Source: a virus. From it: a stretch of DNA of 24,169 nt. The notes beneath the pieces are model-generated. The model did no database searches. It saw only the letters and a list, made by a program, of their open reading frames with translations, and was not told the DNA's origin. Positions within the stretch are counted from its first letter, which is position 1. Every line of letters starts with the position of its first letter. Below, in pieces: positions 12,087 to 20,777 of the stretch. Both the position numbers and the translations under genes were made by a program. The DNA is taken from IMG/VR virus record IMGVR_UViG_3300009155_002886, positions 1-24,169 of that record. One strand, given 5' to 3'.

Positions 12087-12497
12087 TTACAGGATATTAG
12101 GAAATGCTTTGGTGACAACTTCTTTCGTCACGCCAGGATATGGAATATGTTTTTCTTTGACAGCAAGCAATAGCTTTGCGTCCTCAGGATCGAGTGTTTC
12201 GAGTAGCTCAATGAACAATGCTTCACGGCGAAGCTGCTTGAGATTGGGATTACCACCCTCAATGAACAGATACAGCTTACGAGCCTCAGTATATAGCCTG
12301 TTCTGTTGATCAACAATATCGTTTACCTTGTACGGAGGAGCTCCTTCCGGCAGTAACCAAACGATCTTAGGATCATATGCTCCACGAAGCATACTCTCTA
12401 ACGCAACACTGTTGTTTTGACGGAGCCAGTCAATACGCTGGTTTTCGTCTGTGATTTCTGATGCTTTCTTTAGGATTTCAGCAACACCTAGTTTCAT
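12087..12497 (-). CDS. Conserved T4-superfamily protein, 136 aa
   Basis: Function unknown. Segments such as 'MKLGVAEILKKASEI', 'LPEGAPPYKVND', 'LYTEARKLYLFIEGGNPNLK' and 'LDPEDAKLLLAVKEK' are strongly reminiscent of a protein conserved in many T4-like phages next to RNase H (from memory; possibly the family annotated as DUF6433). It is helical and soluble. ATG 12497 overlaps the rnh stop (ATGA), with GGAGA 6 bases upstream. Co-translation with the replication nuclease suggests a role in replication or recombination; this is inference. Confidence 0.85.
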   Translation of the reverse strand: MKLGVAEILKKASEITDENQRIDWLRQNNSVALESMLRGAYDPKIVWLLPEGAPPYKVNDIVDQQNRLYTEARKLYLFIEGGNPNLKQLRREALFIELLETLDPEDAKLLLAVKEKHIPYPGVTKEVVTKAFPNIL

Positions 12498-13345
12498 ACA
12501 AAGTCTCCGATATTTTCCATGAGATTCTTTAGTCGATTAGCAATAAAATAATCCATCAGCTTGTTGGGCTTCTTACCAAGCTGTTCCCCATAACTTTCGA
12601 GAATCTTATCAGCGATATGTTCGGGAATCTTAGTCAGGTCAATCAGTTGCTCATTGCGCTTGTAGTTACGCAGCATCAACTCCGTACAGAAACGCTCTGG
12701 CTCTTGATTGATCCATACTTCGAGCTTCTTAGAACTGATGGGTTTCTGACGTTCACCAACAACCAGACAGTTATCAGGGCTGAGGAAGTTGGGAACTCCA
12801 TCGCCTGCATCACCCTTGATAATATGTTCCTTGAGGAACTGTTCTGGGTTGTTATGAGTGACGAACTTCTTCAGTACAGGATTATACTGACGAACGTTGA
12901 GGTAACGCTGGAGCTGAACGAAGTCTTTGTCACCAGACAGAATGAGAATCTTCTCATAGTCACCGAATTCGCGACAAAGTGTACCGATGACATCATCAGC
13001 CTCTGCAGTTTCAACATCAATAACACGATAGGGAAAAACGAGCTTGAGTTCCTCACGAATCTTGTGCAAACAATCGAAGATTGCCTTCCAATCAAGCTCG
13101 GAAGTCTCTCGGTTCTTCTTGCGATTCGCTTTGTAATATGGGAACAGCTGTCGACGCCAATAGTTTTTGTTATCGCAAGCGATAATCAACTCGCCGTATT
13201 CTTCTCCGAACTTAGCCTTGAAAGATCGGATAGAGTTTAGGACCATATGGCGAACCATACTTTCCTCAATTTCCGCGTTGGTATGGTTACCAAGTTGAAC
13301 CATAATATTGCTAAGCATAACCTGAGAAAGATCAAGAATAATCAT
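12494..13345 (-). CDS. rnh: RNase H / 5'-3' exonuclease (FEN family), 283 aa
   Basis: T4 RNase H type flap nuclease that removes RNA primers and short DNA flaps from lagging-strand fragments. The acidic metal-binding residues are in the usual places: D5 (LDLS), D58 (ACDN), E115/D117/D118 (AEADDVIG), D139/D141 (SGDKDF), and D179/D182 (KGDAGDG), the last in the helix-hairpin region. 'YWRR..FPYYKANRKKNRE' is the helical arch. The length is normal for the family. ATG 13345 has AAGG about 10 bases upstream. The gene follows the leaderless 125-aa gene and is read in the same direction. Confidence 0.93.
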   Translation of the reverse strand: MIILDLSQVMLSNIMVQLGNHTNAEIEESMVRHMVLNSIRSFKAKFGEEYGELIIACDNKNYWRRQLFPYYKANRKKNRETSELDWKAIFDCLHKIREELKLVFPYRVIDVETAEADDVIGTLCREFGDYEKILILSGDKDFVQLQRYLNVRQYNPVLKKFVTHNNPEQFLKEHIIKGDAGDGVPNFLSPDNCLVVGERQKPISSKKLEVWINQEPERFCTELMLRNYKRNEQLIDLTKIPEHIADKILESYGEQLGKKPNKLMDYFIANRLKNLMENIGDFV

Positions 13346-13741: not shown

Positions 13742-13770
13742 ATTATACCTGATTTTTTTTTATTAGTCAA
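13742..13770 (-). promoter_or_regulatory. Sigma70-type promoter, leaderless transcript
   Basis: Minus strand TTGACT (13770-13765), a 17-base spacer, TATAAT (13747-13742). It starts 8 bases after the gmhA stop and probably drives the rnh/phoH block. The -35 lies in a short inverted repeat (TAGTC-CTT-GACTA). Confidence 0.87.
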
Positions 13771-13777
13771 GGACTAT

Positions 13778-14362
13778 TTAGAGTTTTAGATTATTTCCCT
13801 GAATCGAATGATCTGTTCTAATCTTTTGAACAAGAGAATGTAAGATCATCATATGAGTGTCTTCTACAATTCCGTAGTTATTTGCATCAACATGAATCAC
13901 CACGTCCGCCAGGTGATCCTCCAAAACTTTTCCTCCATCAAACCCCACGAGAGCGATCGTCTTCGCTCCAATAGAGTTGGAAAATTGTAGCCCACGCGTA
14001 ATATTCGTGGAATTACCGCTAGAAGAAACTGCTATAGCGAGGGACGGTCTATGGTAAGAGATTTGATCCTGAAAGATATTGAGGTAACTCATATCATTAG
14101 CCAGAGCAGTCAATAGAGGACCATTGCTTGTAAGGCTCGTACACTTCGGTTTTAGATCAGTATCCGAGCGAACACCTTTTACGAAGTCAGCACAGAAATG
14201 ATCAGCGATAGCGGCAGATCCTCCGTTACCGAAGATTACTACGTTGTCCATATTTCTCAGAAGCAGCGCATATGCTTCATCAATCTTTGGTTGATCTACA
14301 GCCATAGCTGCTGCGTAAAGTTTTACAGCGTAATTGGAAAAAGAATTTGATGCAGATATCAT
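13778..14362 (-). CDS. gmhA: Phosphoheptose isomerase, SIS domain, 194 aa
   Basis: Converts sedoheptulose 7-phosphate to D-glycero-D-manno-heptose 7-phosphate, the first step of heptose nucleotide synthesis. The SIS fold markers are FGNGGSAAIADHFCADF (residues 44-60), SSSGNS (113-118, phosphate loop) and the C-terminal IVEDTHMMILH (E167, H170), which fits the GmhA active site. The length matches bacterial GmhA. ATG 14362 overlaps the stop of the kinase gene (ATGA), so it is translated with it. It is the last gene of the sugar cassette. Phage versions are uncommon. Confidence 0.92.
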   Translation of the reverse strand: MISASNSFSNYAVKLYAAAMAVDQPKIDEAYALLLRNMDNVVIFGNGGSAAIADHFCADFVKGVRSDTDLKPKCTSLTSNGPLLTALANDMSYLNIFQDQISYHRPSLAIAVSSSGNSTNITRGLQFSNSIGAKTIALVGFDGGKVLEDHLADVVIHVDANNYGIVEDTHMMILHSLVQKIRTDHSIQGNNLKL

Positions 14363-15345
14363 AATGTTACAGCTGTGCTTCCCTGATCTGTAAAGTTGAA
14401 ATTGAATCTTTTGTATTCGCGCATCGCGAGAGAAACTGATCCTCGACTAGATTCTGGAACGTAGAATAGCATATAGCCACCACCACCAGCACCAAGTAAC
14501 TTACCACCGAGCGCACCAGCACTTATACCTCTCTGATACATGAAATCAATATCAGAGTTTGAGATTTTGTTTGATAACTTCTTTTTGGTTTTCCAGGCTT
14601 CGTCTAACAAAGCTCCGAAGTCATCGATCTTGTTTTTTACCAGATAACCGAGTGCCTGTTTAGCGAGGTATACCAATCTGGTTGTATTATCGAACGCGTC
14701 AACATCGTTACTGATGTTATTGACCTGATCAGAAAGGATATCCGTGGTGTTTCTACTTATGCCTGTAGAATAACACATAAGGTTGTCATTCAACTTACGA
14801 AGAACTGATGCCCCAATATTAAGCGGAGTAACTTCAACTCCGGATGAATCGAACCGGATAACGTTGAACCCACCATATGCTGCTGCATACTGATCTTGCT
14901 TGCCAATTGGTTCGTCGCAGAGATCGATTTCAATCTCACAAGCAGCCTCCGCAAGATCTCTCTTGTTATGAAGTAGAACCTTATGAGCATACAACGCTTT
15001 CAACAACCCTACGGTGAAAGTCGAAGAAGAACCAAGACCCGTACCCTTTGTAGGAACATCGGAGAAACTACAAATCTCGATGTTGTTTTTGATATTGAAA
15101 TATTTTAAGGCTTCTCTGATACGATTGTGTCTTAACTGTTCAACCTTGTCAACAACTTCCATTTCTGAATAGACAGCTCTAATGTGATTAGTTTGACACT
15201 TGTTTAGAGCAATCTGTATATTCTTATCGATGGTAGTCGAAATGACCATCCCAGGATTTTTAGTGACACATTGATTGTAATACTGTGGAATATCTGATCC
15301 CCCTCCGAAGAAACTAACTCGGAGGGGTGTTGTTGATACTATCAT
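14359..15345 (-). CDS. hddA: GHMP kinase, heptose-7-phosphate kinase (HddA-like), 328 aa
   Basis: GHMP-family sugar kinase. MIVSTTPLRVSFFGGGSDIP at the N-terminus, the ATP loop GTGLGSSS (101-108) and the C-terminal GAGGGGYMLFY (285-295) match the HddA type, which phosphorylates D-glycero-D-manno-heptose 7-phosphate at C1 in the GDP-heptose branch. Fucokinase-like enzymes share these motifs, so substrate is inferred mainly from gmhA next to it. ATG 15345 overlaps the glycosyltransferase stop (ATGA), and the stop overlaps gmhA. Full length. Confidence 0.87.
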   Translation of the reverse strand: MIVSTTPLRVSFFGGGSDIPQYYNQCVTKNPGMVISTTIDKNIQIALNKCQTNHIRAVYSEMEVVDKVEQLRHNRIREALKYFNIKNNIEICSFSDVPTKGTGLGSSSTFTVGLLKALYAHKVLLHNKRDLAEAACEIEIDLCDEPIGKQDQYAAAYGGFNVIRFDSSGVEVTPLNIGASVLRKLNDNLMCYSTGISRNTTDILSDQVNNISNDVDAFDNTTRLVYLAKQALGYLVKNKIDDFGALLDEAWKTKKKLSNKISNSDIDFMYQRGISAGALGGKLLGAGGGGYMLFYVPESSRGSVSLAMREYKRFNFNFTDQGSTAVTL

Positions 15346-16328
15346 GTGCTATATTTGAACATCTTCTTAGGGATGCCTCTGGAACCGACTGGATACTGTT
15401 CCTTTAGAGAAGTAAGCATGTCCTGCCACTGACGAGCGATCTTGTTTATGTTGAATCGATTGTCGGCGTAGGACTTCACATAACGTAGGTAGTTCTGTGT
15501 ACTTCCTTCATGAACAACGCTGATAGCTTGGTCTAGAAGATGATAGAACTTATTGGCATGAACATTTGCATTTTCTTCGAACTGATACATTGAAGTCAGA
15601 TTACCGGAAGTATCAGAAAGACCAGCAAGGTTAGGGTGCAGACAAAGAGCGCCAGCACTCATTGATTCAATAAGAGCTCGGCTATTACATTCTTGCCAAA
15701 TAGAAGGATACGCAAAGATGTGAGCCTTCTGTTGAGCTTCTCTGACTACTTCGTTAGGAGCGAACCCATGATAAGTGATCTGTGGATGATTCTTACAGGT
15801 TTCAAATAATTCCTTGAATTGTTCGTCCGCTCCATCCCATCCGTAGATTGAGAAACTTGAAAACACGTCGAGATGGATATTTTTTCTGTGCTTCGCGAGC
15901 TCCACGAAAACTGGTACGAGAAGAGCCAATCCTCTTTGAGGAGTGCTTGTGTAGATGAGTCTGACTTCATCCTTGCTCTTTTCCTTATACTCAATTGGCT
16001 CAATCGGAGTGTCAATAACTGCGCACTTATCGTTCGACGGAATACTCAAAGTGTTAAGGTATTGATTGTATTGCCAGTGACCACAAAAGACCATCTTATG
16101 AAAACGGTCTCGGCTGGCAGTATCCTTTAGATGATTGGTTTCTGGATCCTGGGGAAGATCGTGCAACCAATACACTCTAATCTTGTCTTCCTCAATATTT
16201 CTAACTCTAGAGCAGATAATCTGAAACTCGTCAGCTAGACCCTCTGGCATACGCGCGGCGATCGCGCGCTTAACCATTTCAGTTCCACCAAAAGACTTGG
16301 TAGAGATTTCATTTTCCTCGAACGCCAT
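15342..16328 (-). CDS. GT4-type glycosyltransferase, 328 aa
   Basis: GT-B fold glycosyltransferase, most like family GT4. The N-terminal acceptor domain begins with the FGGTE motif (residues 13-17, acceptor/phosphate-binding loop). The C-terminal donor domain shows 'YTSTPQRGL' and an E(x)7E element (E213, E221) in 'YPSIWQECNSRALIESMSAG'. It retains both halves but is somewhat short, about 40-70 residues below many GT4 enzymes. It probably transfers the sugar made by the neighbouring genes; the acceptor (phage DNA, virion protein or host polysaccharide) is not visible from sequence. ATG 16328 has GGGAG 7 bases upstream and overlaps the epimerase gene. Confidence 0.88.
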   Translation of the reverse strand: MAFEENEISTKSFGGTEMVKRAIAARMPEGLADEFQIICSRVRNIEEDKIRVYWLHDLPQDPETNHLKDTASRDRFHKMVFCGHWQYNQYLNTLSIPSNDKCAVIDTPIEPIEYKEKSKDEVRLIYTSTPQRGLALLVPVFVELAKHRKNIHLDVFSSFSIYGWDGADEQFKELFETCKNHPQITYHGFAPNEVVREAQQKAHIFAYPSIWQECNSRALIESMSAGALCLHPNLAGLSDTSGNLTSMYQFEENANVHANKFYHLLDQAISVVHEGSTQNYLRYVKSYADNRFNINKIARQWQDMLTSLKEQYPVGSRGIPKKMFKYST

Positions 16329-17301
16329 TACGATACTCCCACGCAGATTTGATCATTATGTCTAAGTCATAGTGTTTATACTGGTATTGAAACCCAGTTG
16401 TTCTTATAAATTTGTTAGGATTTGCGACTAGGAACGGCGGATCGCCTACTCTCCTAACACCGACTCTGTATTCAACTTTCCTACAAAGGTTGTTGAACAT
16501 CTCGACGATATCTAGAACGGAGGTTCCTGTTTCGGTTCCTAGATTGAACTTCAAGGAACAAGGATCCTTGTCGTCGCTAAGGTATTTATCAGCGTGGATT
16601 AGAGCTCTACAAACATCGACAACATGTAAGTAGTCTCGAACACAAGTACCATCTCTGGTGTCATAGTCGTCACCATGAATAACAAACGGTGTATCGCCCA
16701 TTATGGCTTTGTCACAAAGTTTGTTGATGATGTGGGGAGTATCTGGTTGCTGCCCAACGTCGCCATAAGCACCAATGACGTTGAAGAATCTAAACGAAGC
16801 TACTCTCAATTTTTTGACTTCGTAGCAAGCATCAATCATCTGCTCACACCAGAGCTTCGAAAGACCATAGTTGTTCGGGGGGCTGATTCTACTTGCTTCA
16901 GTTACAACCTTATCAGTTTCATCGTAAACCGCTGCTGTGCTTGCAAAGATAAGTTTATGTGTAGGCTTCAAATTTTGTAGAAGTTTGAGAGTCTTAGATG
17001 TGTTGTTCTCGAAGTATTCAAGAGGTAAATACGCGCTAGGTCCCAGTAAGCTACTCGCAGCAAGATGAAAGACAGTTGCTTCGGGATAATCTTTGAATAC
17101 TTGCCTCGCGGGAGCGCTGGAAAAACAGTCGCCAAGGAACTCATCACAATACTTTGTTCTTGTCTTGTTTGTCATCCAACATTTTAGCGCATCGGGGTCG
17201 TTGTCAATTCCGACAACGTAGTAGTCATTTTCTTTTAGGAATTTAGTAAGAACTGATCCGATGTAACCAAACGAACCAGTTACTATAGCTACAGGTTTCA
17301 T
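16309..17301 (-). CDS. NAD-dependent sugar epimerase, GalE-like, 330 aa
   Basis: Extended short-chain dehydrogenase. The Rossmann loop is TGSFGYIGS (8-16), the catalytic residues are S121/T122 and Y145xxxK149 (NNYGLSK), and the C-terminal half carries 'VRDYLHVVDVCRA' and 'FNVIGAYGDVGQQ', as in GalE (UDP-glucose 4-epimerase). It probably epimerises a nucleotide sugar; specificity is unknown. ATG 17301 overlaps the methyltransferase stop (ATGA) but has no clear ribosome binding site, so coupling is likely. A start at 17328 would add nine residues without a better site. Confidence 0.87.
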   Translation of the reverse strand: MKPVAIVTGSFGYIGSVLTKFLKENDYYVVGIDNDPDALKCWMTNKTRTKYCDEFLGDCFSSAPARQVFKDYPEATVFHLAASSLLGPSAYLPLEYFENNTSKTLKLLQNLKPTHKLIFASTAAVYDETDKVVTEASRISPPNNYGLSKLWCEQMIDACYEVKKLRVASFRFFNVIGAYGDVGQQPDTPHIINKLCDKAIMGDTPFVIHGDDYDTRDGTCVRDYLHVVDVCRALIHADKYLSDDKDPCSLKFNLGTETGTSVLDIVEMFNNLCRKVEYRVGVRRVGDPPFLVANPNKFIRTTGFQYQYKHYDLDIMIKSAWEYRNGVRGK

Positions 17302-17900
17302 CTCTTTAGATACACCGCATTGATACATGTCATACGACCAAAGTTTTCAAGCGGATCAACTCGCGCGAAACCATGGTCATTATGTAAAGAATCCCACCAA
17401 GGTTCATCCTTTAGTGTAACGTGATATCCTTCATCTGGGAATGTAGCAATACCAGCAGTAAAGATACCACCTTGCTTTAGGTGATTATTGATGTTTGTAA
17501 GTACTTGAACCAAGTCGGCTTCATGAATGTGTTCAAGCACATCGAATGCCGAAATAACATCAAACTCGATACGATTACCTTCGTCGTCTAGAACTTCAAA
17601 TGGTTTGGTGATATCAGCAGTGAACAGATTATTCGGAATCTTTGGCCATTCGCCATGTTCATTCTTTCTGCCATAATCACTACCTTCGATACCAACAGCA
17701 AGAATATCATTCTTCAAGAACTGAGAAACAAACCCACCACCAGCACAACCAAGATCCATGTAACGCATATCAGGTCCAAACCTACGGATAAGTTCTCTCA
17801 CATATGCGCCATTTTTAGTATTATCTTGTTTTGTGCCATTAGGAACGATGTGATCATGACTCTCGTAAGCAATCGGGAAATCAGTAACAACTCTAACCAT
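17298..17900 (-). CDS. SAM-dependent methyltransferase, 200 aa
   Basis: Class I Rossmann methyltransferase. Motif I YMDLGCAGGGF (47-57), an acidic residue in motif II (GIEGSD), and 'FDVLEHIHEADL' (119-130), typical of FkbM/UbiG-like small-molecule or sugar methyltransferases. No DNA-target recognition domain is visible. It may methylate the sugar or glycan. ATG 17900 has GAGGAGAA about 9 bases upstream and overlaps the cytidylyltransferase gene by 8 bases. Confidence 0.85.
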   Translation of the reverse strand: MVRVVTDFPIAYESHDHIVPNGTKQDNTKNGAYVRELIRRFGPDMRYMDLGCAGGGFVSQFLKNDILAVGIEGSDYGRKNEHGEWPKIPNNLFTADITKPFEVLDDEGNRIEFDVISAFDVLEHIHEADLVQVLTNINNHLKQGGIFTAGIATFPDEGYHVTLKDEPWWDSLHNDHGFARVDPLENFGRMTCINAVYLKR

Positions 17901-18300
17901 TTTTAATTCTTCTCCTCAATTCAGAACTACTCCAAGTGTGATATCTCGGAATCAAAATAATCTCTATGTTTCGTTCTCTACAAATTTCCATACCAGTGTA
18001 AGATCTGAAAGCGTAATCTGAACCTATGAATCTTTTATTGATATTCGCGGTTGATAAAAAATTCACTAGATCTAACTCCGTGTCATACGGAAAGATATCG
18101 TTGACAGCATTCAGAGCGCCTAGCTGAATGTGTCTTTCTAAAGTAGACTGCACGGGTTTGTTCTTTTCCGGACGATCAATAGTTGGGTCAGTATGCAACC
18201 CAACAACCAAATAGTCACATTGTTTCGCGGCACTATTCAAAAGATGAACGTGACCGGGATGTAGTAGGTCAAATGCGCCGCAAGTGAATCCTACTACCAT
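17893..18300 (-). CDS. Cytidylyltransferase, TagD/HldE-C like, 135 aa
   Basis: Nucleotidyltransferase of the HxGH superfamily. HPGH at residues 14-17 and the C-terminal WSSSELR (123-129, in place of the ISTTKI/ISTSxI motif). Similar to glycerol-3-phosphate cytidylyltransferase (TagD) and the C-terminal domain of HldE (heptose-1-phosphate adenylyltransferase), for example 'STLERHIQLGALNAVNDIFP'. In this operon it most likely activates the heptose or a related sugar as an NDP-sugar. ATG 18300 shares a base with the upstream stop (TGATG). Confidence 0.87.
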   Translation of the reverse strand: MVVGFTCGAFDLLHPGHVHLLNSAAKQCDYLVVGLHTDPTIDRPEKNKPVQSTLERHIQLGALNAVNDIFPYDTELDLVNFLSTANINKRFIGSDYAFRSYTGMEICRERNIEIILIPRYHTWSSSELRRRIKNG

Positions 18301-18674
18301 CAGTTAGTTTCCATAGTAGCCTGACGCTTCAGGAAAGCTCGACGTAGAGACTTCGCGTCAAAATACTTCACAATCAAATCTTCTACGATACGTTCGTCGA
18401 ATGTCTTACAGCTGAACACATCGAGGTAAATCTCTCGATCCTGATTAGCGAAATGCGCGCAGATATTGCTAGTTTCAATCAGCTGAACAAGGCTGTAGCC
18501 TTCCTTGTTACCAGTACCGAATTTAACAATCTGTGGTTCGCCATACGCAACCATGTCAATATCATTGACAAGCTGCTTATTGAAATTGTAGATATTGTCA
18601 TAGCTGGTCATCTTCTCGATGTCACAACCAGCGGCATCCACGATAGCGTGATAACCCCAGTAACGTTCACTCAT
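18300..18674 (-). CDS. speD: S-adenosylmethionine decarboxylase-like protein, 124 aa
   Basis: Small SpeD-type enzyme, expected to self-cleave and form a pyruvoyl group for S-adenosylmethionine decarboxylation in polyamine synthesis. The family markers 'YWGYHAIVDAAGCDIEKM', 'VAYGEPQI', 'GYSLVQLIETSNICAHF' and 'YLDVFSC' are in order. Candidate residues are S69 (cleavage serine), H74 and C89. The usual His after the serine (ESH) is Asn here, so activity or substrate may be altered; some SpeD relatives act on arginine or ornithine. ATG 18674 is 9 bases after AAGGA; ATG 18683 is against it. Confidence 0.85.
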   Translation of the reverse strand: MSERYWGYHAIVDAAGCDIEKMTSYDNIYNFNKQLVNDIDMVAYGEPQIVKFGTGNKEGYSLVQLIETSNICAHFANQDREIYLDVFSCKTFDERIVEDLIVKYFDAKSLRRAFLKRQATMETN

Positions 18675-18688
18675 TCCATTCATTCCTT

Positions 18689-18964
18689 CTAGTAAGCACC
18701 CTTGACTTCGCAGTAAAAAACAGAATCAATTCGGAAAGAACGCCAACCGTTCTCGCCCAGATCCCAAACTGCGATAACGTCGGGATTTTCTTTATGGAAA
18801 GTCTTCTCTTCAGTTTGCTCTTCGAGACTACGCTGGTAGCTCTCCGGTAACATATGTTTCTGAAGAGTGCAACGCATGATGCGATTCTCTCCATTAGCCT
18901 TTGTGAAATGAACTTCAAGCACTTGGCTACGAAGATCCTTCAGCAAGGTGTCACGCTGGTACAT
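18689..18964 (-). CDS. SH3-like beta-barrel protein, 91 aa
   Basis: Resembles small phage SH3 beta-barrel proteins (DUF2693 type) that begin with an 'LRSQVLEVHFTKANGENRIM' strand pair and end with 'VWDLGENGWRSFRIDSVFYC'. Function unknown; possibly nucleic acid or protein binding. ATG 18964 has AGGAG 7 bases upstream. It follows the glutaredoxin gene after 10 bases and is downstream of a promoter-like site at 19032-19060. Confidence 0.8.
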   Translation of the reverse strand: MYQRDTLLKDLRSQVLEVHFTKANGENRIMRCTLQKHMLPESYQRSLEEQTEEKTFHKENPDVIAVWDLGENGWRSFRIDSVFYCEVKGAY

Positions 18965-18974
18965 AATATAGCTC

Positions 18975-19229
18975 CTAACCGTTCAATTGAATCTGAGAAT
19001 CATTTATAGAATTCAGATGTTCCCTAAGCTGAGTATAACCCCCAATATACATACCGTCAAGCACTATTATTGGAAAAGACTTAGCTTCCGGGAACTTTTC
19101 TAGGATTTGTTCTCTTGAGAAATGTCTACCAAGTTTATGTTCGCTGTAAAGAATTTGTTTGTCCCATAGAGCAATCTTAGCCCTCTGACAATATGGACAA
19201 TCTTCTTTCGTATATAGCTCGACGAACAT
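18975..19229 (-). CDS. Glutaredoxin, 84 aa
   Basis: Thiol-disulphide protein with the CPYC active site (C11, C14), a FPIIV cis-proline segment and a C-terminal GGY (glutathione site). It probably reduces the phage class I ribonucleotide reductase, whose genes lie 3-5 kb away in the same orientation. The length is typical of glutaredoxin 3. ATG 19229 shares a base with the upstream stop. Confidence 0.92.
   Translation of the reverse strand: MFVELYTKEDCPYCQRAKIALWDKQILYSEHKLGRHFSREQILEKFPEAKSFPIIVLDGMYIGGYTQLREHLNSINDSQIQLNG
19032..19060 (-). promoter_or_regulatory. Promoter inside the glutaredoxin gene
   Basis: Minus strand TTGACG (19060-19055), a 17-base spacer, TATACT (19037-19032), preceded by AATAGTGC as in the early promoters. 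It lies in the 3' part of the glutaredoxin gene and faces the SH3-fold, SpeD-like and sugar-cassette genes. Confidence 0.5.
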
Positions 19230-19700: not shown

Positions 19701-20246
19701 TTAATAAAATTCAACAATTTCATCTGCGATTCCATATTTCACAGCTTCTTGGGCACTCAGCCAGACGTCTTCTGGAGGTAAGAGATACTTTCTGACCTCT
19801 TTTTCACTCAACCCTGTGCACTTTATATAGTGATCTATAAATCGTCTGGAAATATTGTGGATCTCTTTTGATCTAGCCATCAACTCATGTTCTTTTCCCC
19901 AGAAGATCGAGGAGAACTGATGGCTAAGAATACTTGTGTTTTCCGTTATGTAACGATGACCTTTTTTACCAGCGATGAACGCCAGTAGCCCACAGCTTGA
20001 TATCTCTCCTAGACCGTAAGTGTAAATCGGTATACGAGAGCCTTTCATTACATCAATCAGGCTGAAAGCTGCGGGTAATTCGCCACCAGGAGAGTTGAAA
20101 ATAATCTTCATGAACTTCGGTGCAGTCTTCATCAAGTTACGTTCGATGATGAACTTGATCGCGTTAGAAGTAGTTTCGTTAGTGAAATCTTGATGGAACA
20201 AATAGTAATTATGATCCTCTAGAGTCTTCTTTTCGTCTTTCGTCAT
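19701..20246 (-). CDS. clpP: ClpP-like serine protease, 181 aa
   Basis: Peptidase of the ClpP family. The substrate strand is 'FNSPGGELPAAFSLID', the nucleophile S84 lies in GEISSCG (in place of GxASSMG), the base His109 is in SILSHQF, and D160 is in 'PEDVWLSAQEAVKYGIADEI'. The length is close to that of bacterial ClpP. Phage members may act as prohead or regulatory proteases, or join the host ClpX/ClpA; no ATPase gene is adjacent. ATG 20246 follows GAGGA by about 6 bases. Confidence 0.9.
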   Translation of the reverse strand: MTKDEKKTLEDHNYYLFHQDFTNETTSNAIKFIIERNLMKTAPKFMKIIFNSPGGELPAAFSLIDVMKGSRIPIYTYGLGEISSCGLLAFIAGKKGHRYITENTSILSHQFSSIFWGKEHELMARSKEIHNISRRFIDHYIKCTGLSEKEVRKYLLPPEDVWLSAQEAVKYGIADEIVEFY

Positions 20247-20261
20247 ATCGATCCTCGCTGT

Positions 20262-20777
20262 TTACATTATCTCAACTCGCAGAACCATTATTCCGGTACG
20301 CTCGAACCCGAGAGCTCTAGCAGAACCAAGAGAAAGATCAAACTCTCTACCTCTTATATATGGTCCTCTGTCATTCACTCTAACTGTTACACTCTGCCCA
20401 TTATCGGGATTAGTGAATCTTACAATTGTGCCGAATGGTAGAGAGCGGTGGGCGACAGTTAAACCCAGAGGGTTGTATTGTTCACCATTGGCAGTTACTC
20501 TACCATGTCTATACCAAGATGCTTTTGCGTTGTACCTTCGTACGATGCGTCGTTCCTTGGCGGCAGCGTTGTTGTCGCTTACCTCTTGAATATGAGCGTT
20601 ATTAGTTTCAACTGTTGCAACCATAGGGGTTGCTTCAATCGTATCAGCTTGTGGGCTGACAACACGTTCCTCCGTCAAAATGTTTTCACGTGCAATATTG
20701 TTATTTTGTGCTGCGCCAGAGATGCAGCATAGTAAAACGCTCAAACTCAAAAGCGCGACTAGTGTGCGCTTTAGCAA
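20262..20777 (-). CDS. rlpA: RlpA-like secreted DPBB protein, 171 aa
   Basis: Double-psi beta-barrel protein of the RlpA family, whose bacterial members are septal lytic transglycosylases that cleave denuded peptidoglycan. A signal peptide (MLKRTLVALLSLSVLLCCIS) is followed by a spacer of about 60 residues, then the DPBB domain (about 84-171) with AHRSLPFGT (H110) and VNDRGPYIRGREFDLS (D136). The signal cleavage is probably near GAAQ; the Cys pair is not a good lipobox. Start is TTG 20777, 8 bases after AGGAG. Probably exported to act on the cell wall in lysis or entry interference. Confidence 0.88.
   Translation of the reverse strand: MLKRTLVALLSLSVLLCCISGAAQNNNIARENILTEERVVSPQADTIEATPMVATVETNNAHIQEVSDNNAAAKERRIVRRYNAKASWYRHGRVTANGEQYNPLGLTVAHRSLPFGTIVRFTNPDNGQSVTVRVNDRGPYIRGREFDLSLGSARALGFERTGIMVLRVEIM

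Follow-up and report, generated by a model that had tools for sequence, protein, structure and literature searches.

A T4-like phage locus with a conserved GT4 glycosyltransferase and a predicted module for a heptose-type sugar donor

The genome fragment of a freshwater phage analysed here, a stretch of 24,169 bases from IMG/VR (record IMGVR_UViG_3300009155_002886; in the following the window), carries a T4-like signature, namely NrdA, NrdB, PhoH, an rnh-type exonuclease and a dCMP deaminase. On its minus strand six open reading frames (ORFs) lie head-to-tail at positions 13778-18300, with neighbours overlapping by 8, 31, 20, 4 and 4 nt (Table 1). Searches against Pfam, PHROGs, NCBIfam and PDB sequences agreed on a SIS isomerase, a GHMP/HddA-like kinase, a GT4 glycosyltransferase, a GalE-like SDR protein, a class I methyltransferase and a cytidylyltransferase-like nucleotidyltransferase (NTase). 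An earlier note, made from the sequence alone, had named the same six coupled genes, and all six are present with significant domains. The locus raises the question of what these genes make together and to which acceptor the product is transferred. Very probably their products synthesize a heptose-type sugar in activated form and transfer it to an acceptor. For this donor and transferase module we tentatively favour a glycan or lipid of the host envelope as the acceptor.

A constant glycosyltransferase with exchangeable donor genes

A DNA-level search of named phages gave no match to the window. Protein searches detected Caulobacter phage Cr30 and viral contigs carrying the whole block. By alignment search with GT4, at least 407 viral contigs with a relative were recognized and 80 of them were fetched; the relatives considered here were thus collected by GT4 similarity. 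The gene order WYL_2-(SpeD)-NTase-(methyltransferase)-GalE-GT4-HddA-GmhA-rnh-g12087-PhoH is kept down to a GT4 identity of about 55-60%, and dozens of viral contigs show it with open frames even where identity has fallen to about 40-60%. This recurrence excludes a chance arrangement, and the possibility of a cassette unique to the window phage was dismissed on the same ground.

The interval from WYL_2 to the T4-type rnh was compared in 49 viral loci. NTase, GalE, HddA and GmhA surround GT4 in 36 of them (together with the methyltransferase in 10 of these 36), seven contain GT4 only, four NTase and GalE only, and two NTase and HddA without GalE. The cassette, for which the earlier note had proposed a search in related phages, is typical of its phage group. 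It follows from the counts that GT4 is the constant part of the locus, whereas the donor genes form an exchangeable module subject to gain, loss and alteration. No other gene of the locus is conserved as well as GT4, which surpasses rnh in 36 of the 43 distant loci; part of this conservation is ascertainment, since the loci were chosen by GT4 similarity, and this counts against our interpretation.

Most of the cassette is syntenic in Cr30 (NC_025422), where gp006-gp010 encode glutaredoxin, epimerase, glycosyltransferase, HddA and GmhA in the same order; the block adjoins gp005, which matches a window protein, and no GmhB is present. In contrast to the window, the Cr30 block contains an extra small ORF and no methyltransferase, the NTase (TagD) is unlinked and lies near rnh, the proteins are only 32-47% identical to those of the window, and the genome encodes a TET/JBP oxygenase. 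Emdodecavirus phiM12 and Stenotrophomonas phage DLP6 have a GT4 of the same family, in phiM12 within the syntenic order Grx-WYL_2-GT4-...-rnh, but HddA is found in neither genome and in DLP6 other sugar-transferase-like genes lie beside GT4. The Kyanoviridae cyanophages Bellamy and SynMITS9220M01 share the HddA-like kinase and epimerases, the latter phage also GmhA and an NTase. Their genes, however, belong to large clusters with many other sugar genes and have no syntenic GT4 or rnh anchor.

Among the relatives the methyltransferase slot can be empty, and where it is filled, a Methyltransf_23 protein alternates with an unrelated TylF-type enzyme (macrocin O-methyltransferase). A protein of 197 amino acids fills it in L008, L012, L029, L030 and L032, and in the two loci scanned, L008 and L012, this protein is of the TylF type. 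The simplest role common to both types of enzyme would be O-methylation of a sugar.

Compared with window positions 13778-15345, HddA of L008-L012 and L030 is 90-92% identical while the adjacent GmhA is only 50-52% identical, a difference that points to recombination with a junction within the cassette. Between GalE and GT4 a protein of 143-162 amino acids is inserted in some relatives (L006:1039-1524, L027:344-775 and L029:9523-10011; the L006 copy has no Pfam match), and a peroxiredoxin-like gene (Redoxin, AhpC-TSA; L080:2392-2973) takes the position of the donor genes directly before a GT4 that stands by itself.

Two contigs of a Bacteroidetes metagenome-assembled genome (MAG), G031 (CAIWHI010000288, our locus L093, and G031:C271; about 148 kb together), are T4-like and of the same lineage. 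With GT4 at the end of one contig and HddA-GmhA-rnh at the end of the other, the two seem to derive from a single phage; a binning artefact, or else a prelytic infection, is the probable reason for their presence in the MAG. The HddA gene of this MAG was rejected as a bacterial source, as it sits on such a phage contig. Few close cellular relatives of GT4 were found, in a genome scan limited to two peptide patterns. L096 (44%) and L097 (29-30%) do lie in bacterial contexts, and the idea of a strictly phage-only GT4 was softened accordingly.

The predicted enzymes and the donor sugar

D-glycero-D-manno-heptose is activated either by GmhA, HddA, GmhB and HddC, giving GDP-heptose, or by GmhA, HldE, GmhB and HldD, giving ADP-heptose. 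The window has homologues of the isomerase and of the C1-kinase as well as an HldE-C-like NTase. Unlike either pathway, it combines a kinase of the HddA type with a transferase of the HldE-C type, contains no GmhB and has GalE instead of HldD. By this comparison the GmhA-like enzyme would convert sedoheptulose 7-phosphate to heptose 7-phosphate, which the HddA-like kinase is predicted to phosphorylate at C1. A host GmhB would remove the 7-phosphate and the NTase would then form the nucleoside diphosphate (NDP)-heptose, with ADP, CDP or GDP as candidate nucleotides. GalE and the methyltransferase may tailor the sugar, and GT4 would transfer it.

The transferase has the hallmarks of the retaining GT-B family GT4 in CAZy, the EX7E motif (E213-x7-E221) and a GT-B fold; the residues of this motif and G14-G15 are invariant. 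Its AlphaFold model is confident (predicted local distance difference test, pLDDT, 92.5), and the best folds in a structure search were GT4-type enzymes of many acceptor types, with Z up to 27.5. A search of PDB sequences yielded no relative for GT4 or for the methyltransferase. The same search connected the HddA-like kinase with the solved structures 4usk, 3k85 and 4n3o (1e-38 to 8e-33), and the GHMP motifs and the catalytic Asp are present, G101, G103, S106-S108, D151 and G285-A286-G287 (GAGxGG) being invariant in nine sequences. In the NTase the CTP_transf_like domain includes the HxGH motif in the form HPGH; it scores 113 bits with phrog_7878 (heptose adenylyltransferase) and 46 bits with g3p_cytidyltrns.

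Is the missing phosphatase encoded elsewhere by the phage, or is it left to the host? The earlier note had reported that the cassette lacks GmhB, and indeed no HAD or GmhB-like protein was detected in any frame of the window. Searches for a GmhB at another place in the window, or in near-complete relatives, found none: TIGR00213 had no match in Cr30, Bellamy and SynMITS9220M01, TIGR01656 none in Cr30, G001, G002, G003 and G005, and the G031 phage contigs contained neither GmhB nor TET in the stretches of about 140 kb examined. A complete NDP-heptose pathway, one that includes GmhB, is present neither in the window nor in these near-complete relatives.

TIGR01656 does match G007 and G011. In G011 (L091) GalE is absent, and its slot between NTase and GT4 is taken exactly by a HAD gene. 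The arrangement recurs in L088, whose HAD protein is 41% identical, and both HAD proteins score on heptose 1,7-bisphosphate 7-phosphatase models, although under the cut-off. In G007 the genes for a SIS isomerase, a GmhB-like HAD protein, a transaldolase and HddA form an overlapping operon, with NTase-GalE-GT4 elsewhere in the genome. Transaldolase can provide sedoheptulose 7-phosphate, and GmhB takes off the 7-phosphate once the kinase, HddA or HldE, has acted. Because of these associations in L088, L091 and G007, a route via heptose 1,7-bisphosphate is the best reading of HddA together with the SIS isomerase. Since Cr30 and four near-complete environmental relatives (G001, G002, G003 and the G031 phage) carry the cassette without a detectable GmhB, the step seems to be left to the host, which probably supplies the 7-phosphatase wherever the phage gene is missing. 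Of the two options in the earlier note, host supply or a different substrate, the first has become the better one.

Several points weigh against this route. The best NCBIfam names are phosphoheptose isomerase, HddA, GalE and rfaE_dom_II, but none of the cassette enzymes reaches an equivalog cut-off: the isomerase scores 81.6 bits with TIGR00441 (cut-off 209; 81-87 bits with gmhA models), the kinase 157 bits with NF049969 (cut-off 600) and the NTase 71 bits with TIGR02199 (cut-off 181.5). GalE comes nearest, with 250.9 bits for TIGR01179 galE (cut-off 262.3) and 4.5e-43 for GalE structures; it scores nearly as a true UDP-glucose 4-epimerase and may be a plain UDP-hexose epimerase. In the GmhA-like protein the catalytic His is kept (H175), but Asp59 stands at the position of the catalytic Glu of solved GmhA structures, and this Asp is invariant in the aligned phage relatives; the catalytic roles of Glu and His are those of E. 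coli GmhA. Finally, a GmhB in the GalE slot is seen in two loci only.

We therefore considered a donor that is not a heptose. In this case the substrate of the GmhA and HddA homologues would be a different sugar phosphate, and GT4 would receive a UDP-hexose from the GalE-like enzyme. The unreached cut-offs together with the high score of GalE, the exchange of Glu for Asp, the lack of GmhB in most members and the resemblance of the NTase to cytidylyltransferases as well all fit such a donor. On the other hand, the linkage of GmhB-like HAD and transaldolase genes to HddA and SIS in sister phages agrees with a 1,7-bisphosphate intermediate and a supply of sedoheptulose 7-phosphate. On balance we regard a non-heptose donor as rather unlikely and a heptose-type donor as the likelier product of the cassette. 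The earlier note had described a complete route to make, modify and attach a heptose-derived sugar; the gene names stand, while the route is still a prediction, with the cut-offs, the choice of nucleotide and a possibly plain epimerase as its weak points.

The acceptor of the transferred sugar

We considered the host envelope, the virion and the phage DNA as acceptors. The envelope has, in our estimate, not quite an even chance. GT4 would act on a glycan or lipid facing the cytoplasm of the infected host, and the changed surface could block competing phages or re-adsorption. We count for this acceptor that the GT4 relative of SAR11 (L097) adjoins genes whose translations were read as MlaA/MlaC-, GT2- and FkbH-like; in a Rhodospirillaceae MAG another cellular relative stands by itself. 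The same view, with the O-chain as the target of modification, was taken of phage glycosyltransferases in a study of pelagimyophages (PMC7029224). Against the envelope it must be held that the cassette has no acceptor, export or lipid-carrier gene.

The second candidate is the virion, where GT4 would decorate capsid or tail proteins and thereby shield or retarget the particle. A conserved transferase flanked by tailoring genes that vary (GalE or GmhB, and two methyltransferases unrelated to each other) could produce variable coats on one protein acceptor, and the protein O-glycosyltransferases SdgB and GtfA are among the structural neighbours of GT4. This match, however, does not discriminate between acceptors, because GT4 folds cover every acceptor kind, and the genes are placed with nucleotide metabolism, away from the late structural genes. 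We judge glycosylation of the virion unlikely.

T4 glucosylates hydroxylated bases of its DNA. The DNA of RB69 carries an arabinosyl modification (PMC6024577). In the same manner GT4 could add a heptose-type sugar to a hydroxylated phage base, by which restriction or CRISPR would be escaped. The locus resembles the T4/RB69 modules in that a phage transferase occurs with or without its own donor genes, T4 relying on the host donor. It differs in that the transferase is of the GT4 type and that no hydroxymethylase was found in the environmental relatives. The T4 DNA glucosyltransferases are absent among the structural matches listed for GT4, which excludes nothing. The module is contiguous with nrd and glutaredoxin genes and adjoins rnh, and Cr30, DLP6, G011 and G013 carry GT4 together with a TET/JBP oxygenase (PF12851, about 450 amino acids). 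GT4 relatives also occur in phiM12 and phiN3, the phages that we take to be the subject of Finan 1984 and of Martin and Long 1984. Restriction-resistant DNA of rhizophages is credited to these two papers in PMC6992544, a hint at modified DNA in both phages.

Nevertheless, DNA is disfavoured as the acceptor because near-complete environmental relatives have the cassette without known base-hydroxylating enzymes. The window itself is a fragment of 24 kb. G001, G002 and G003 (146-164 kb) contain neither PF12851 nor PF00303, the family of a thymidylate-synthase-type hydroxymethylase, and the oxygenase was likewise not found in G004, G005, G007, the G031 phage, phiM12 and OC. As an obligatory partner of GT4 the oxygenase was ruled out, since it occurs in four of 30 records searched, 29 of which have GT4; among large TET phages there was one weak GT4 match in 14. 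A dCMP hydroxymethylase was rejected as partner as well: PF00303 is present only in Cr30, phiM12 and, weakly, G010, is absent from G001-G005, and in Cr30 and phiM12 the enzyme has retained the thymidylate synthase Asn. DNA glycosylation is in our opinion distinctly unlikely, and an acceptor other than envelope, virion or DNA quite unlikely. Of the three targets listed in the earlier note, DNA has thus lost ground, while virion and host glycan are both retained.

The oxygenase of Cr30 is gp129 (L104:1270-2598), a protein of 442 amino acids annotated as an SNF2 DNA repair protein. Homologues are found in DLP6, G011 and G013 (L111, L105 and L106), and relatives in 462 viral contigs.

A broader proposal is a conserved system of the T4 superfamily, in which an anchored, near-core transferase puts a methylated or epimerised heptose, swapped between phages, onto phage DNA or a virion protein. 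This seems improbable to us, and we know of no heptosylated phage DNA or virion.

That such phages carry gmhA and glycosyltransferases is already reported: gmhA is listed as a well-characterised auxiliary metabolic gene of marine phages (PMC9238414), it was also reported in PMC7409041, and the Cr30 genes are annotated in GenBank. In the literature searched, which excludes most subscription journals, no description was found of a GT4 at an anchored position combined with exchangeable genes for a heptose-type donor, or of the alternation between GmhB and GalE. Environmental viral contigs with this GT4 number in the hundreds, and in many of them it belongs to a heptose-type donor cassette. As the standard Caulobacter transducing phage Cr30 carries most of the cassette, both the sugar and its acceptor are accessible to tests in a widely used laboratory system. 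Such a test would reveal whether phages produce activated heptose themselves, with a single phosphatase borrowed from the host, and what purpose this serves.

Neighbouring genes and transcription signals

Table 1. Features of the cassette and its surroundings in the window
Feature	Position	Strand	Assignment and evidence
GmhA-like SIS isomerase, 194 aa (amino acids)	13778..14362	-	predicted sedoheptulose 7-phosphate isomerase; SIS_2 1.9e-11
HddA-like GHMP kinase, 328 aa	14359..15345	-	predicted heptose 7-phosphate 1-kinase; GHMP N 1.1e-11, C 2.2e-5
GT4-type retaining GT-B glycosyltransferase, 328 aa	15342..16328	-	module core; PF00534 (Glycos_transf_1) 1.6e-8; phrog_2170
GalE-like SDR epimerase, 339 aa	16309..17328	-	putative tailoring or separate UDP-hexose epimerase; Epimerase 1.3e-35
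Class I S-adenosylmethionine (SAM) methyltransferase, 200 aa	17298..17900	-	predicted sugar O-methyltransferase, optional; Methyltransf_23 1.6e-11
HldE-C/TagD-like NTase, 135 aa	17893..18300	-	HxGH-type; CTP_transf_like PF01467 2.9e-13
SpeD-like AdoMet decarboxylase	18300..18683	-	PF02675 7.5e-18
WYL_2 protein	18689..18964	-	conserved left-hand neighbour; PF10902; syntenic in relatives and phiM12
Glutaredoxin-like protein	18975..19229	-	conserved neighbour; also in Cr30, DLP6, phiM12
T4-type RNase H/exonuclease (rnh)	12494..13345	-	conserved right-hand anchor; phrog_107 9.6e-64; synteny
Sigma70-like promoter TTGACT-N17-TATAAT	13742..13770	-	between gmhA and the next gene; 11/12 matches

The six genes delimit the cassette as the earlier note had it, but the operon context is wider, with SpeD and WYL_2 directly upstream. 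SpeD overlaps the NTase by 1 nt and still adjoins GT4 where the donor genes are missing (L079, L085); it belongs to the same operon, probably with a role separate from the cassette. The sigma70-like promoter follows gmhA directly, and 39 of 61 loci have a comparable element after gmhA, from which it appears that cassette and rnh unit are transcribed separately. A sequence resembling a T4 late promoter, TATAAATA, overlaps the gmhA stop codon in L004, L008, L083 and L091, but not in the window. The operon region of the window also contains genes for a ClpP-like protease (19701-20246) and an RlpA-like lipoprotein precursor (20262-20777).

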